Origin: a virus
Reading direction: 5' to 3' (one strand)
IMG/VR virus record: IMGVR_UViG_3300036860_000164
Coordinates: 1 to 22,554 of that record
Length of the DNA: 22,554 nucleotides
Translations under genes and position numbers: made by a program
Shown: in pieces, positions 8,265-19,729 of the stretch
Layout of the letters: each line of letters opens with the position of its first letter
Position numbering within the stretch: the stretch's first letter is position 1
Notes under the pieces: model-generated
Databases searched by the model: none
What the model was told of the DNA's origin: nothing
The model's input: only the letters and a program-made list of their open reading frames with translations

Positions 8265-8460
8265 CGCCCATCTCCCGAAGCGTCACCAGCGTCGCCCGAA
8301 GCTCCCGCGCCACCGCCGCCGTAGCCAGGCCAGCACCCTCATCCAGCGTCTGAGCGAGTCGGTAGGCGGTCTCCGCCAGCGACCGCTGTACGCCTTGAAG
8401 TTCCCCGAGGGCCTTCACGTCGCGGCGGGTCGCCCGCTCCACCGGTCCGCGTGAGGTCAT
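8092..8460 (-). CDS. Putative terminase small subunit
   Basis: A 122-residue protein between an HNH gene and the large terminase, the usual place of the small subunit. ATG 8460 overlaps the HNH stop as ATGA. Residues 15-65 (LQGVQRSLAETAYRLAQTLD, ATAAVARELRATLVTLREM) are helical and resemble the short terminase small subunits of actinophages, which recognise the packaging site and load the large subunit. The last 55 or so residues are read in a different frame over the start of the large subunit and are Gly/Ala/Arg-rich, so the true protein may be less conserved there. The family assignment is from context and pattern, not a sure domain hit. Confidence 0.6.
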   Translation of the reverse strand: MTSRGPVERATRRDVKALGELQGVQRSLAETAYRLAQTLDEGAGLATAAVARELRATLVTLREMGDGSAAGRELLARLSSPVHDAEVSRASDAGRQGRGGGGAAGDATDAVAAARRRRRTGG

Positions 8461-9008
8461 CCGACCAGCCGAAGTTGCTGCGGCGTTCCTCGCTTGCCCT
8501 TGCGGAGATTGCAGATGCGATGGGCCAGCTGGACATTCGCTTTCGTGTCGGTGCCGCCTTCACTGATCGGAATCACATGGTCGACCGTCGGCGCCATCGG
8601 CAACCGGCCGTCGATCAAACGCATATCGACCTTCTTCCGGCACAGCCCGCAGCGGTACCGATCACGAGCAGCGATCTCCGCCAGCGTGTAAGGCTCCGTG
8701 CTCGCCCGCTGGAGCACCCGCCGTCGCCGACACTTGCTCCGATACCGCTCACGTTCGGCCGCCATGCGCTCAGCTGGCGGCAAGCGCTTCGCGTCGTTCG
8801 TGTTCCGGTTCGCGCAAGCCCGAGAACAGAACCGAGCTGAGCTAGATGGTTTGCTGATGGCAAACGTGGCGCCGCAGCGGACGCACTGTCGGGTGTTGCG
8901 TCCCTGTCGGCATGCCCTGCACACAATCGCAGGACGAGAGCTTCTACCTCGGTGAACGGGCTTACCGCAGGCCGAGCAGTTGTCCCAATGCTTAAGGCTT
9001 GTGCACAC
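8457..9008 (-). CDS. HNH endonuclease with zinc ribbons, beside terminase
   Basis: A 183-residue protein with a GTG start at 9008. Two zinc ribbons (CSACGKPV...VCRAC and CVRCGATF...FCSRAC) come first, then an HNH domain with YRCGLCRKKVD, TVDHVIPISEGG and QLAHRICNLRKG. It ends PQQLRLVG, close to the end of the HNH protein at 1432-2217. HNH nucleases next to terminase are known to take part in cos cleavage in HK97-like phages; that role is possible here, but it may also be a homing nuclease that inserted between the packaging site and the small subunit. Its stop overlaps the next start as ATGA. Confidence 0.87.
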   Translation of the reverse strand: MCTSLKHWDNCSACGKPVHRGRSSRPAIVCRACRQGRNTRQCVRCGATFAISKPSSSARFCSRACANRNTNDAKRLPPAERMAAERERYRSKCRRRRVLQRASTEPYTLAEIAARDRYRCGLCRKKVDMRLIDGRLPMAPTVDHVIPISEGGTDTKANVQLAHRICNLRKGKRGTPQQLRLVG

Positions 9009-12204: not shown

Positions 12205-12387
12205 TCACGGGGCAGCCTCTTTCACGGGACCGCCGCACTGTGGGCACGGCTTGCGGGTGGGTTCCTCTCGGAAGGTGCGGCCGCGGTAGGTGGTGATGAG
12301 CCGGCCGGCTCTGATGCCCTTCCATGTGCAGGGGCCGGCCAGGGTCAGCTGCGGGTTGGCGCACTGGACCTTCACTTGGTCGGTCAT
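12205..12387 (-). CDS. Small zinc-ribbon-like protein
   Basis: A 60-residue protein from ATG 12387, overlapping the initiator stop as ATGA. Cys at VQCANP and GPCTWKG and a CPQCGGPVKEA near the end can form one zinc site around a beta hairpin (RAGRLITTYRGRTF). The ribosome-binding site is weak, so it is probably coupled to the gene before it. Function unknown. Confidence 0.65.
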   Translation of the reverse strand: MTDQVKVQCANPQLTLAGPCTWKGIRAGRLITTYRGRTFREEPTRKPCPQCGGPVKEAAP

Positions 12388-13205
12388 GGTGGACTCTCGT
12401 CCGCTTGATCTTCGGGCTCAACTTCGCTCAGTTCTTGCGCGAACTTCTCTCGAAACTTGATCAGTTCCTGCTCACGTTTCGCTTCAAACTCACGCGGATC
12501 CTGATCGGTTTCCGATGGGATCCGGCGTCGCCAGCCGGCCCCGAGGGCAGCGTCAAGCTCGGCGGAGACGTGGGGTGGCAGAGCGCCATTGGGTGCGCCG
12601 ATCAGCTCGGGTGGCGGGTCACCGGGATCAGCATCAGCCCTGATCAGGCCAAGTGGGGGCTGGGGATTGCCTGCCGAGTCGGCGTCGCCGCTTGGCGTCG
12701 CAGACGGCGGCGAGGCAGGACGGCTGTCCGAGCGGACAGCCGTGGGGTCGGGGAGGACAGAGCGCGCCGTAGGCGCTCTGTCCTGGGGATGGGGAGTGCT
12801 CGGACTGTCTGCGGACGTCCTTTTTTTGTCCGCTCGGACATTCGGCGGACGGGCGCGTTCGTTGCGCTTGCGCTGGCGGTCGGCCTCGCGGCGTTGCTCG
12901 GTCTGCGCTCGCGCATCCTTGCGCTGTGCGGCGCTCGGGTTGTAGGCCAGGAAGTCGTGGATCTGCCAGCCACCCGGCACCTGTTCCCACCGGCCGACCT
13001 CCACCAGCTTGGCCGCAGCAGCCAGCGCCTTGGCCTTGGGCAGAAATGGCGCGGCCACGAGCAGGGAGCTGGTGGGGAGGTGCCCATCGGTCTCATGGCG
13101 TGCAGCATGGCACATGCCGGCGACGTCCAGGGCCATGGCGAGGGGACCCGCGGCGAGGATCTTGGGGTGATGGGCGTAGCGGTCGTCGATCTTCACCCAG
13201 CTCAC
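12384..13205 (-). CDS. Replication initiator / replisome organizer-like protein
   Basis: A 273-residue protein with GTG 13205 and GGGAGGTGCC upstream. Residues 1-95 (SWVKIDDRYAHHPKILAAGP, GMCHAARHETDGHLP, LVEVGRWEQVPGGWQIHDFL, YNPS) match the winged-helix N-terminal domain of actinophage replisome-organizer-like proteins. A long basic then Pro/Ser-rich linker follows (residues about 100-195), then a charged helical C-terminus. Such proteins bind the phage origin and recruit host helicase. The linker DNA contains several perfect inverted repeats and a T7 tract, discussed separately. The exact function is inferred from family likeness; plain HTH regulator is the alternative. Confidence 0.65.
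   Translation of the reverse strand: MSWVKIDDRYAHHPKILAAGPLAMALDVAGMCHAARHETDGHLPTSSLLVAAPFLPKAKALAAAAKLVEVGRWEQVPGGWQIHDFLAYNPSAAQRKDARAQTEQRREADRQRKRNERARPPNVRADKKRTSADSPSTPHPQDRAPTARSVLPDPTAVRSDSRPASPPSATPSGDADSAGNPQPPLGLIRADADPGDPPPELIGAPNGALPPHVSAELDAALGAGWRRRIPSETDQDPREFEAKREQELIKFREKFAQELSEVEPEDQADESPP
12720..12743. repeat. Perfect 10-bp inverted repeat in initiator linker DNA
   Basis: ACGGCTGTCC and GGACAGCCGT around GAGC. Its core TGTCCGAGCGGACA (12725-12738) appears again in reverse complement at 12827-12840. Confidence 0.85.
12754..12784. repeat. Perfect 12-bp inverted repeat in initiator linker DNA
   Basis: AGGACAGAGCGC and GCGCTCTGTCCT around a 7-nt loop, lying between the two copies of the TGTCCGAGCGGACA element. 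Confidence 0.85.
12798..12851. repeat. T7 tract, second 14-bp palindromic element and paired 20-nt direct repeats
   Basis: Imperfect 20-nt direct repeats, 17 of 20 alike, occupy 12798-12817 and 12832-12851. TGTCCG-CT-CGGACA is at 12827-12840, next to a run of seven T (12821-12827), which is rare in this GC-rich sequence. Iteron-like sites next to an AT tract are typical of phage origins; function here is inference. Confidence 0.6.
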
Positions 13206-16982: not shown

Positions 16983-17169
16983 CGGCCCCACCTTCTTTGT
17001 GCCCGCATGGGCAGTAGCAGCGAACGGCGGTGAAGAGATAGCGGATCCAGCCGTCAATACCTTTGCGCCAGAGGGCAGTGCATCGGGAGCCGTGCCAGGA
17101 GAAATGCACGATCTCGCCGTCGATGACGTAGTCGAACTCCCTGCAACGGTCGTATCTGATGGCGGGCAT
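16975..17169 (-). CDS. Small Cys/His protein
   Basis: A 64-residue protein from ATG 17169; the start overlaps the preceding stop as TGATG. The sequence has YDRCREFDYVIDGEIVHFSW in the first half and VRCYCPCGHKEGG near the end, a C-C-C-H cluster. The beta-rich first half and late metal site resemble other small actinophage proteins. Function unknown. Confidence 0.65.
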   Translation of the reverse strand: MPAIRYDRCREFDYVIDGEIVHFSWHGSRCTALWRKGIDGWIRYLFTAVRCYCPCGHKEGGADA

Positions 17170-18098
17170 CAGTCCTCACCGCCGCTGTCGTGCTCGTCCA
17201 GCCCGGGAGTCGTCGCGGACTCTTGGGACCCTTCCCCGTTCTCGTCCCGTCGGTCTGCTCGTCCCGGGCTGGACGTCTGGTCGGCACCGGGGCGGGGGGG
17301 GTGCCCCGGTGCCGACGTGTTGGCACCGGCCGGCCGGCCAGGGTCGCCGTCGTCACTGGCCGGCCGGCTGGATGCGGTCTCACGTTCGATCGCGCGCTGG
17401 AGCTGCCGCAGCTGCCCTTTGGCGAGGGGCCGCTCGTAGCCCTTGGACTCGAGCCACGTGGCGACCCAGTCCCGCAGGCCGCGCTGCTGGATGAGCTCGC
17501 CGAGGTCGGCGTGGGCGCGCTGCTGCTCGGCGAGGTCCTTCCAGCCCGGCGCGACACCTTTGCCACCCGACACGGTTTCCCCGCGGGCGGCGGCCGCCTC
17601 CATCTCCTCGGCGGGAGTGGTGTCGTAGCCGGCGAGCTTCATGACGAACCCGAGCGGCATCCGCAACGCCTTCGAGCTCGCCCTTGTCTGCGCCATGGAC
17701 AACAACTGGAACGCGGGGGCGCGTTCCCACTTGCGGATCGGCTTGCCGGTCTTGGGGTCGGTGCCGACCTCCTCGTTGCGCATGACGACCGCGTCGGCGC
17801 GGCCGACGAGCGCGCCGGCCAGGGTGCGGGCCTCGGCGGTGGCGCCGTACCCGTCGTCGTCGCCGATCTCCCAGGTTCGTGCGGTGGTCGCGAACACCCC
17901 GAGCATGGTGCCGGCCAGCGTCCATCCTTCGAGGTAGACGTGTTCGGACTGGTGGATCCGCTTGACGAGCTGACGGTCGCGGATGAGGGGTGCGATCACG
18001 TCGGCGATGGCGGTGGCACGGGCAACGATGACGTGTGGGGTCGCGTCGCCGAATAGGGTCAACGCCTGCCGGTCGGCGCCAAGCTCAAGTTCGCTCAT
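17169..18098 (-). CDS. Phage protein, possible ssDNA-annealing/recombination protein
   Basis: A 309-residue protein from ATG 18098 with GGAGAGGGCGG upstream; TAATG overlap with the gene before. The conserved core (residues about 10-175) has VIVARATAIADVIAPLI, HVYLEGWTLAGTMLGVFATT, RTLAGALVGRADAVVMRNEE, and SMAQTRASSKALRMPLGFVM followed by KLAGYDTTPAEEM. This AQTRA..KA...GFV..LAGY.ATPAEEM pattern is common in actinophages, near replication genes; annotations vary and likeness to Erf/RecT-type annealing proteins is only suggested. A helical region and a long polar tail follow (residues about 235-309), whose DNA holds two 14-bp inverted repeats. Confidence 0.55.
   Translation of the reverse strand: MSELELGADRQALTLFGDATPHVIVARATAIADVIAPLIRDRQLVKRIHQSEHVYLEGWTLAGTMLGVFATTARTWEIGDDDGYGATAEARTLAGALVGRADAVVMRNEEVGTDPKTGKPIRKWERAPAFQLLSMAQTRASSKALRMPLGFVMKLAGYDTTPAEEMEAAAARGETVSGGKGVAPGWKDLAEQQRAHADLGELIQQRGLRDWVATWLESKGYERPLAKGQLRQLQRAIERETASSRPASDDGDPGRPAGANTSAPGHPPRPGADQTSSPGRADRRDENGEGSQESATTPGLDEHDSGGED
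17195..17275. repeat. 14-bp perfect inverted repeat, 53-nt spacer
   Basis: CGTCCAGCCCGGGA (17195-17208) and TCCCGGGCTGGACG (17262-17275), in the tail-coding end of the 17169-18098 gene. Confidence 0.85.
17280..17316. repeat. 14-bp perfect hairpin with G8T loop
   Basis: GTCGGCACCGGGGC (17280-17293) and GCCCCGGTGCCGAC (17303-17316) around GGGGGGGGT. It begins 4 nt after the repeat 17195-17275 ends. Confidence 0.88.
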
Positions 18099-18549: not shown

Positions 18550-18961
18550 CGAAGCGGCGCAGGTCACGCCAACGACGCGCCCGCTCTATAGCACATATGC
18601 GGCACCGTCGATGCCGCCCTTCAAGGCGCAAATTCTCTCCGGAGAGAGGATGGCCATTCACGCAGTGGGTCTTCCGCGCCTGTAGTGCCGCTGGCGCACT
18701 GCCGCGCAATATGTTCTCGCGGTGCGTAACCGGCTCCAGATGGGCAGGGTTGATGCACTCGGGGCGTCGGCATACATGGTCGAGTTCCAGCCCGGCAGGC
18801 ACCGGTCCGATAAATTCCTCGTAGGAGACCCGGTAGGCTTTCCGCCATTTGCGGCTGATGCGGATCTGACCATAGCCATGCCATTGCGAGCCTGTCCAGA
18901 GCCAGCAGTCGCCCTCGATTTTGATCTTCGCGAGCAGCCGTTCCGAGATTGACCTTCTCAT
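18536..18961 (-). CDS. HNH homing-type endonuclease
   Basis: A 141-residue protein from ATG 18961. CWLWTGSQWHGYGQIRI, YRVSYEEFIGPVPAGLELDH, VCRRPECINPAHLEPVT and RENILRG form the HNH_3-type nuclease core; a C-terminal zinc part follows (THCVNGHPLSGENL, RRCRICAIERARRW), typical of free-standing phage homing nucleases. It is a DNA endonuclease expected to promote its own spread. Both ends lie in identical 14-nt direct repeats that include the stop/start overlaps, so removing the gene would restore a normal WhiB to membrane-protein junction. Confidence 0.93.
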   Translation of the reverse strand: MRRSISERLLAKIKIEGDCWLWTGSQWHGYGQIRISRKWRKAYRVSYEEFIGPVPAGLELDHVCRRPECINPAHLEPVTHRENILRGSAPAALQARKTHCVNGHPLSGENLRLEGRHRRCRICAIERARRWRDLRRFGGAA

Positions 18962-18971
18962 GCGGCACCCC
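18958..18971. repeat. Direct repeat J3 flanking the HNH gene, copy 2
   Basis: The same 14 nt as 18536-18549, at the junction of the WhiB stop and the HNH start. Eleven of these nt also occur at 21374-21384, at the end of the methyltransferase gene. Confidence 0.85.
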
Positions 18972-19296
18972 GCTTGAGTCGGCGCCGGTCAAGTTCGGAC
19001 AGTCCGCCCCAAATCCCGTGAGGCTCCTGGTGGACGACCCCCCACGCTAGGCACTCGTGCAGCGCGGGGCAGTGGTCCCGGCAGATCCGCTTCGCCTCGG
19101 CGGCGTCATCCAGCGTGAGGCCTAGGTCCCGGTCTGGCGCGAACCAGATGTTGGGGTCGTGGTTACGGTGGTCTTGGCATGCCAGCCCAGCGCCGAAGTT
19201 TGGGGCGGGCCTGCCGAGTGGCAGGTTGACACCGGGGGGGCGGTGGAGGTTCCCGACCGGCTTGGCGAGGCTGCCGAGACTGGTCGCGCGGGTCAT
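18958..19296 (-). CDS. WhiB-family Fe-S transcription factor
   Basis: A 112-residue protein from ATG 19296 (ATGA overlap). The four Fe-S cysteines are C40, C72, C76 and C82 (C-x3-C-x5-C for the last three), followed by GIWGG (94-98) and a basic tail (LDRRRLKRG) that binds DNA; WFAPDRD stands where WhiB proteins have WFP. WhiB proteins are known only from actinobacteria and their phages, where they bind sigma factor and change host transcription; phage copies can also act in superinfection control. It looks full-length and intact. Confidence 0.93.
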   Translation of the reverse strand: MTRATSLGSLAKPVGNLHRPPGVNLPLGRPAPNFGAGLACQDHRNHDPNIWFAPDRDLGLTLDDAAEAKRICRDHCPALHECLAWGVVHQEPHGIWGGLSELDRRRLKRGAA

Positions 19297-19499
19297 GACG
19301 CACCGTCCCGGTGGAGTTCGGGGAAACAGCGCTTGCACCAGCGATAGCTGAGCCGCAGCCGAGTCGCTTGCATGCGGATCTCCGCGACGGTCCTGCCGTC
19401 GGCCCAGTGCCAAGGGACACCGAACGGTGGAAGGCTGTACGTGCAGGAACCTGTGCGGTGGACGGTGCCGCCATCGCGGCTGCGCACGTACGTGGTCAT
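19293..19499 (-). CDS. Small Cys/His phage protein
   Basis: A 68-residue protein from ATG 19499, overlapping both neighbours as ATGA. It has TVHRTGSCTYSLPPFGVPWH, then WADGRTVAEIRM and SYRWCKRCFPELH: one Cys and His in the first half and a Cys pair near the end, as in small actinophage proteins that may bind zinc. Directly upstream of WhiB and probably made with it. Function unknown. Confidence 0.7.
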   Translation of the reverse strand: MTTYVRSRDGGTVHRTGSCTYSLPPFGVPWHWADGRTVAEIRMQATRLRLSYRWCKRCFPELHRDGAS

Positions 19500-19729
19500 G
19501 GCCCACCGTCCAGGTCGACCTCGGCTGGTGGCCGCCAGCCGTCCTTCTTGGCGAGGGTGACGCCTGCCTCGAGGATGGCCAGCGCGGCCTCGTCGGTGGC
19601 CCATTCCTGGTCGGGGAGCTCGGCGAGCTGCTGGAGGGTCTGGCGGCTGGCGAACCGGCCGACGAACCGGCCCGTTCGGGGGTCGCGGCGACGATTGCCA
19701 TATGGTGATGGCGTTCTCCTTGTGACCAT
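19496..19729 (-). CDS. Hypothetical protein
   Basis: A 77-residue protein from ATG 19729 (TGATG overlap, GGGGGG upstream); GTG 19732 is the codon just before and equally possible. The start is basic (VTRRTPSPYGNRRRDPRTGR, FVGRFASR), the rest is acidic and helical (LQQLAELPDQEWATDEAALA, ILEAGVTLAKKDGWRPP). The basic arm could bind nucleic acid. No family recognised. Confidence 0.6.
   Translation of the reverse strand: MVTRRTPSPYGNRRRDPRTGRFVGRFASRQTLQQLAELPDQEWATDEAALAILEAGVTLAKKDGWRPPAEVDLDGGP

Follow-up and report, generated by a model that had tools for sequence, protein, structure and literature searches.

A probable phage replication origin in the linker-coding part of the initiator gene, and a proposed origin class of actinobacterial phages

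Replication origins that lie inside the gene for their own initiator are already known from lambda O, SPP1 gene 38 and TP901-1. In phage lambda and its Stx-phage relatives the origin is in the middle of gene O, where the iterons are themselves inverted repeats and are followed by an opening element; extra iterons merely lengthen the linker of the encoded protein (PMC7466680). In SPP1 the direct repeats of oriL are located within gene 38 and are bound by gp38, with gp39 as the loader and gp40 as the DnaB-type helicase (PMC6316719). The initiators of the lactococcal P335 phages TP901-1 (ORF13) and Tuc2009 (Rep2009) bind direct repeats in their own genes, and these repeats are the origin (PMC8965321). 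The RepA proteins of the mycobacteriophages Miko and Jeeves (320-350 aa, HTH at residues 95-132, related to RepA of the pMSC262 plasmid family) are phage-encoded initiators that are sufficient for replication, and the origin is presumed to lie within or next to repA (PMC7157519). In the open-access papers searched, most actinobacterial phages have no mapped origin.

The locus described here was compared with these systems. It lies in a 22,554-nucleotide stretch of viral DNA (IMG/VR record IMGVR_UViG_3300036860_000164), the whole of which is called the window below. Positions 12720-12851 very probably form the core of the phage replication origin, placed among the codons for the linker of the initiator. 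An earlier note on this DNA had proposed the same segment, and comparison with relatives supported that proposal, with replication presumed to start there. As in lambda, the putative origin sits well inside the initiator gene and has inverted-repeat iterons followed by a candidate opening element. Lambda has an AT-rich tract and one iteron family, whereas the family of the window gene has a C-rich tandem tract, a C(TAC)G hairpin and many lineage-specific iterons. The gp38-gp39-gp40 order of SPP1 is paralleled in Microbacterium phage Dropshot, in which the genes after the initiator carry the annotations helicase loader and DnaB-like helicase; beside the window initiator gene, neither kind of gene was recognised. 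SPP1 differs from the window in its AT-rich unwinding element and its second origin, oriR. Replisome organizers, to which the initiators of TP901-1 and Tuc2009 belong, were among the structural matches of the N domain of the window protein; TP901-1 and Tuc2009 are Firmicute phages, however, and neither the tract and hairpin module nor a helix-iteron correspondence was found described there. Miko and Jeeves share with the window an actinobacteriophage-encoded initiator, but their RepA is set apart by the described position of its HTH, compared with the N-terminal winged helix of the window protein, and no repeats were identified there, in contrast to the linker repeats of the window. Neither the arrangement in three parts nor the correspondence between helix and iterons reported below was found in the open-access full texts searched, which does not in itself prove novelty.

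The 12384-13205 gene is a member of a phage replication-initiation family. Its product gave a profile match to PHROG 2447 'replication initiation protein' (E=1.4e-27, residues 1-257), and its relatives, the closest of which (L003) has an overall identity of 60%, carry the annotation RepA-like replication initiator. No Pfam match was obtained for the protein itself, either to the DnaD / Phage_rep_org_N winged-helix initiators or to any other family; the only one among the relatives was a weak match to DUF7302 (4/73). The protein consists of a winged-helix N domain, a long helix (H5), a low-complexity linker and a short C-terminal part. An AlphaFold2 model based on a 73-sequence alignment placed residues 1-115 in a winged helix followed by the single long helix H5, with a mean pLDDT of 96.8. 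The top matches in a structure search with the N domain were phage HTH and replisome-organizer proteins (E down to 5e-6). In the PDB, the fold search returned only weakly similar winged-helix proteins, among them the DnaD N domain (2vn2, E 0.3, TM 0.5), and neither sequence nor fold searches found a confident solved relative. Profile searches gave no match to an HUH endonuclease or other nuclease family, in line with the predicted winged helix and basic helix; a rolling-circle nick site was rejected because the initiator has no nuclease. The features of the gene and of its linker-coding DNA are as follows.

12384..13205, minus strand: replication-initiator gene, 273 aa, GTG start
12912..13205, minus strand: winged-helix domain, residues 1-98 (AlphaFold2 prediction)
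12864..12932, minus strand: helix H5, residues 92-114 (AlphaFold2 prediction)
12876-12902, minus strand: H5 residues 102/105/106/109/110, proposed iteron-reading face (co-variation with iteron class; held-out prediction)
12798..12851, minus strand: iteron cluster with two 20-nt direct repeats, the dyad TGTCCGAGCGGACA (12827-12840) and GGACGTCC (12813-12820)
12821..12827, strand not assigned: T7 run within the iteron cluster, read as A7 on the gene strand
12785..12794, minus strand: first half of the C-rich tract (gene strand CCCCATCCCC), directly next to the hairpin
12754..12784, minus strand: 12-bp hairpin, gene-strand centre CCTACGG, 2-nt bulge
12744..12753, minus strand: second half of the C-rich tract (gene strand CCCCGACCCC)
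12720..12743, minus strand: dyad with 11-bp arms in which the iteron core TGTCCGCTCGGACA occurs for the second time
12667..12717, minus strand: further imperfect stem (single-strand fold and sequence comparison)

The repeats were as the earlier note had described them, with small corrections: the T7 run is at 12821-12827, and the palindrome at 12720, given there as 10 bp, is ACGGCTGTCCG-AG-CGGACAGCCGT (12720-12743), with arms of 11 bp and a 2-nt loop. The 12-bp hairpin was present at 12754-12784 (arms AGGACAGAGCGC/GCGCTCTGTCCT) and, as the note had not remarked, is bounded exactly by GGGGTCGGGG (12744-12753) and GGGGATGGGG (12785-12794) on the plus strand. The 14-bp element TGTCCGAGCGGACA occurs at 12725-12738 and again, as its reverse complement, at 12827-12840; TGTCCGNNCGGACA has two perfect copies in the whole window and no others. 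The 20-nt direct repeats (12798-12817 and 12832-12851, 17/20 alike) have a spacing of 34 bp.

Synonymous shuffling, in which codons were permuted within the gene so that the protein and its codon usage were held fixed, was used as the null for these repeats. In 12720-12851 the inverted 8-mer count was 18 (mean 1.5 in the shuffles) and the summed hairpin stem was 29 (mean 1.9), values that were reached by none of 5000 shuffles; a 12-bp stem was reached in 2/5000. When hairpin stem per 132 bp was scored over the whole 22.5-kb window, all of the top stretches started between 12651 and 12717, and as single-stranded DNA the 12660-12860 segment folded 6.9 SD better than dinucleotide shuffles. The window repeats are therefore real and beyond chance. 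The TGTCCG hexamer was not enriched across the window (20 compared to 19.4 expected), and the unusual feature is its clustered, symmetric arrangement, not its count. The DNA of the 12667-12717 stem was largely conserved in L003 too, a conservation that could have a protein-level cause (PASPxSATPxGDADSAG).

To extend the comparison beyond the window, 104 relatives below 70% identity, which are not statistically independent, were collected from single-protein scans, and each gene was divided into the N domain, the linker (the 75 codons after the N domain) and the rest. Direct and inverted 7-mer repeats in the linker were at 3.03 times the synonymous expectation, with 59/104 genes at p<=0.01. The same measure gave 1.40 times in the N domain (7/104 genes at p<=0.01) and 1.42 times in the C part (11/97); these flank values of about 1.4 indicate that the synonymous null has a modest general bias, which the linker signal exceeds by a wide margin. 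The linker DNA is under family-wide selection at the DNA level. The protein sequence of the linker is Pro/Arg-rich and poorly conserved, and the repeats are lineage-specific (GTAACG, GTCACG/GTGACG, GAAGCA, GCGAAC, TGTCCC/G, GAATCG, GTAGACG and CCCGAT). On comparison of the relatives, as the earlier note had suggested, repeats were kept in the linker while both their sequence and the linker residues varied.

The linkers usually share one order of elements: lineage-specific iterons, then a tandem C-rich tract, then an AT-richer perfect hairpin directly after the tract. Tandem tracts with 4-6-nt units, mostly (CCCGA)n or (CCCGT)n, were present in 52/104 linkers compared to 4.3 expected. They were strand-polar: 62 genes, compared to 21 expected, had CCCx4 on the coding strand, and 4 genes had GGGx4. 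Perfect hairpins (stem of at least 8, loop of 3-8) numbered 62 in the linker region, where 8.5 were expected; in the flanks there were 4 (3.1 expected) and 3 (4.8 expected). Hairpins of at least 8 bp of the C(T..)G type, in which a loop of 3-4 nt begins with T and is closed by C-G, occurred in 33 genes compared to 0.35 expected, with TAC and TAAC as the commonest loops. The stem sequences of these 33 hairpins differed widely, yet they had no non-Watson-Crick pairs; such perfect pairing, free of G-U, argues for a DNA-level element. The C(T..)G hairpins mostly started -2 to +9 nt from the end of the tract. The tract was 5' of the hairpin in 27 of these 33 genes, and iterons were 5' of the tract in 22 of these 27. 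No classic AT-rich block was found beside the iterons, the window having the T7 run only. In the family as a whole, the 20 nt that directly follow the tract had a GC content lower by 16 points, compared to 4 in the synonymous null, and are a candidate opening site. At least one of iterons, tract and hairpin was present in 96/104 genes. The earlier note had named relatives with the same protein but no linker repeats as the case that would count against the origin; all three elements were missing from a minority only, 8/104 genes (about 8%).

The window fits this layout, in the order iterons (12798-12851), CCCCATCCCC, hairpin, CCCCGACCCC and then a second iteron dyad (12743-12720). Its C-tract is short and split around the hairpin, and the CCTACGG at the hairpin centre is the commonest loop sequence among the relatives, the window copy having a 2-nt bulge. 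The plus strand of 12744-12794 has four G4 runs that flank the hairpin and could form a quadruplex, one loop of which would hold a duplex stem. In four linkers (L011, L012, L013 and L014) GAGACA tandem repeats on the coding strand, coding for ETETETE, replace the C-rich tract at the same place, which indicates that the tract can vary in base composition. The CCCx4 excess (62 genes compared to 21 expected) makes a G-quadruplex possible on the non-coding strand, but this idea is unproven, since some lineages have GAGACA- or GAAGTA-type tracts instead.

The earlier note had also supposed that the 12384-13205 protein binds these sites, a view that was supported indirectly by co-variation between iteron sequence and one face of H5. 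Iteron classes were defined by the analysts in 69 genes from the DNA 3' of the H5 codons only, and each residue was scored for how well it tracked class when genes were paired at matched N-domain identity. The highest scores were those of R106 (0.43), R105 (0.40), T102 (0.32), R110 (0.29) and D109 (0.18), compared to a maximum of 0.176 over all columns in 40 label shuffles. These positions (i, i+3, i+4, i+7, i+8) form one face of the helix. A Mantel-type partial correlation between the five positions and unsupervised iteron similarity, given residues 1-98, was 0.295, and none of 500 gene-label permutations gave more than 0.077; the winged-helix recognition helix (57-69) had a value of 0.046. 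Examples of the proposed correspondence are listed below.

Iteron GTAACG: H5 ARQQAWR
Iteron GTCACG: H5 ERQRKAR
Iteron GAAGCA: H5 EAGRxGG
Iteron GCGAAC: H5 ERMRxxR
Iteron TGTCCC/G: H5 xRKAxxR

Leave-one-out prediction of iteron class, with neighbours restricted to at most 45% N-domain identity, was correct for 45/69 genes from residues 100-110 and for 55/69 from the five positions, which had been chosen on the same data; residues 1-98 and 57-69 gave 9/69 and 8/69, respectively. A small held-out set of 20 further relatives (15 phage isolates, one plasmid and four contigs) was then used. With counts tallied by hand and a class called at three or more copies, 11/20 were assignable, including one tie (L281). 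The five H5 positions predicted 9/11 correctly, with the tie counted, and residues 1-98 predicted 4/11; both misses (Jinkies and Zucker) had poor H5 matches. Since no more than about 100 bp separates the H5 codons from the iterons, joint transfer or linkage could contribute to the co-variation, but the helical periodicity of the positions is not expected from linkage alone. These results point, indirectly, to binding of the iterons by the protein whose gene contains them, and H5 is likely to be the main determinant of specificity.

The module is not dependent on being linker codons. In Propionibacterium phage B22 (L294:901-1456) the initiator has 121 aa and ends just after H5, and the non-coding DNA before the next gene carries GTAAGCAA-type iterons and (CCCGTA)n. 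The H5 sequence of B22, EAGRRGG, is in line with these iterons. Mycobacterium phage Dori has a similarly short initiator gene that is followed by a different repeat cluster. Further Propionibacterium phage records match the initiator family.

Binding of an initiator to iterons is often autoregulatory as well, and the repeats might be operators for self-repression of the initiator gene or a transcription roadblock, with the true origin elsewhere. The co-variation with H5 indicates co-evolution of a protein with its binding sites, not replication. However, the sites are in the middle of the gene, far from its start, and are accompanied by a strand-polar tract and a hairpin, each of which was enriched separately. 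In B22 the sites are 3' of the stop codon, where nothing of the initiator gene is left to block, and the equivalent arrangement is the origin in lambda, SPP1 and TP901-1 (PMC7466680, PMC6316719, PMC8965321). We consider the operator explanation improbable. The earlier note had also named GC skew as something that might place the origin elsewhere. There was no origin mark in the skew at 12720-12851, and the check was uninformative, as the skew is driven by gene direction and its extremes are mostly at the record ends.

Two further explanations were judged less probable still. If the hairpins acted in RNA, as terminators, attenuators or regulatory structures of the rep mRNA, their frequency among the initiator relatives would be accounted for, and the C(UACG)G loop is a stable RNA tetraloop; but the 33 C(T..)G stems lack G-U pairs and other mismatches although their sequences differ widely, no T-run follows the hairpins, Rfam gave no matches in the window at the gathering threshold, and the iterons and tract would still need a separate explanation. 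This reading is very unlikely. An intrinsic terminator was rejected, since the hairpin is mid-gene and has no T-run, and a packaging site was considered and rejected. It is just as hard to credit that the linker is neutral low-complexity DNA, encoding a disordered segment that drifts or expands by replication slippage or recombination. The poor conservation of the Pro/Arg-rich linker protein would fit, as would the tracts that are simple tandem repeats. Neutral drift is opposed by the inverted repeats, the fixed order and strand polarity, the hairpins adjoining the tract, the excess over synonymous shuffles and the co-variation with H5, and in B22 the iterons and tract persist outside the coding frame.

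For 12720-12851 as an origin, the following mechanism is envisaged. The initiator would bind the iterons through its winged-helix domain and the long basic helix H5, with residues 102/105/106/109/110 setting the iteron sequence that is read; in the window the iterons would be those built on GTCCG, namely TGTCCG-NN-CGGACA and the GTCCG direct repeats. The nucleoprotein complex would then open the adjacent region of C-rich tract and hairpin, which has asymmetric strands and an AT-richer hairpin start. A DnaB-type helicase would be loaded by a phage loader where one is encoded and by host factors otherwise, and synthesis would start at 12720-12851. Binding, opening and helicase loading are inferred from the established systems of lambda, SPP1 and TP901-1/Tuc2009. 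The chances that the tract and hairpin are the opening or loading site are about even.

On balance we favour a widespread class of actinobacterial-phage origins, in which the three-part module lies in linker codons, or just downstream if the protein is truncated, specificity comes from a short face of H5 and not from the recognition helix, and origins are readable from the protein. Relatives of one family member are encoded by 433 isolate genomes. If this is true, origins would be predictable from sequence in hundreds of isolates of Mycobacterium, Gordonia, Microbacterium, Streptomyces, Arthrobacter and Propionibacterium phages, origin-initiator specificity could be read from five residues, and matched origin/initiator pairs would be available for compatible plasmid vectors. 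The family would also be a clear case of a single DNA stretch selected for a DNA function while encoding a tolerant linker, with B22 as a natural example in which iterons and tract have become non-coding. The rep linker was outscored by other segments when a plain repeat score was applied to complete isolates, so that the origin would be missed by a search for repeats only. In the window, the highest plain 7-mer repeat score, above that of the rep linker, was at 17151-17550.

Relatives also occur on plasmids. The phage-like Saccharopolyspora pogona plasmid NZ_CP031143.1 (L203:5998-6969) has a C-rich tract, CCCCCTCCCCTCCCCTCC, and a hairpin, TGTAGTTCCTAACGGAACTACA; its initiator relative sits near recT, exonuclease and WhiB genes, and this replicon is possibly a phage-plasmid. 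By eye, the linker DNA of the Streptomyces plasmid NZ_CP108596.1 (L202:6001-6837) and that of Streptomyces phage SF3 (L019:3001-3777) had no clear iterons, tract or hairpin.

No near-identical phage DNA was found for the window, and a tRNA scan of it found none. To the left of the initiator gene are HNH, terminase large subunit, portal and head genes, and to the right is a WhiB-like gene. The genes at 1432-2217 and 8457-9008 (minus strand), which flank the head and terminase genes, matched the same HNH endonuclease families. The 247-aa protein encoded at 18958-19701 (minus strand) has a C-terminal WhiB-like domain and an N-terminal extension that is unusually long for the WhiB-like family.
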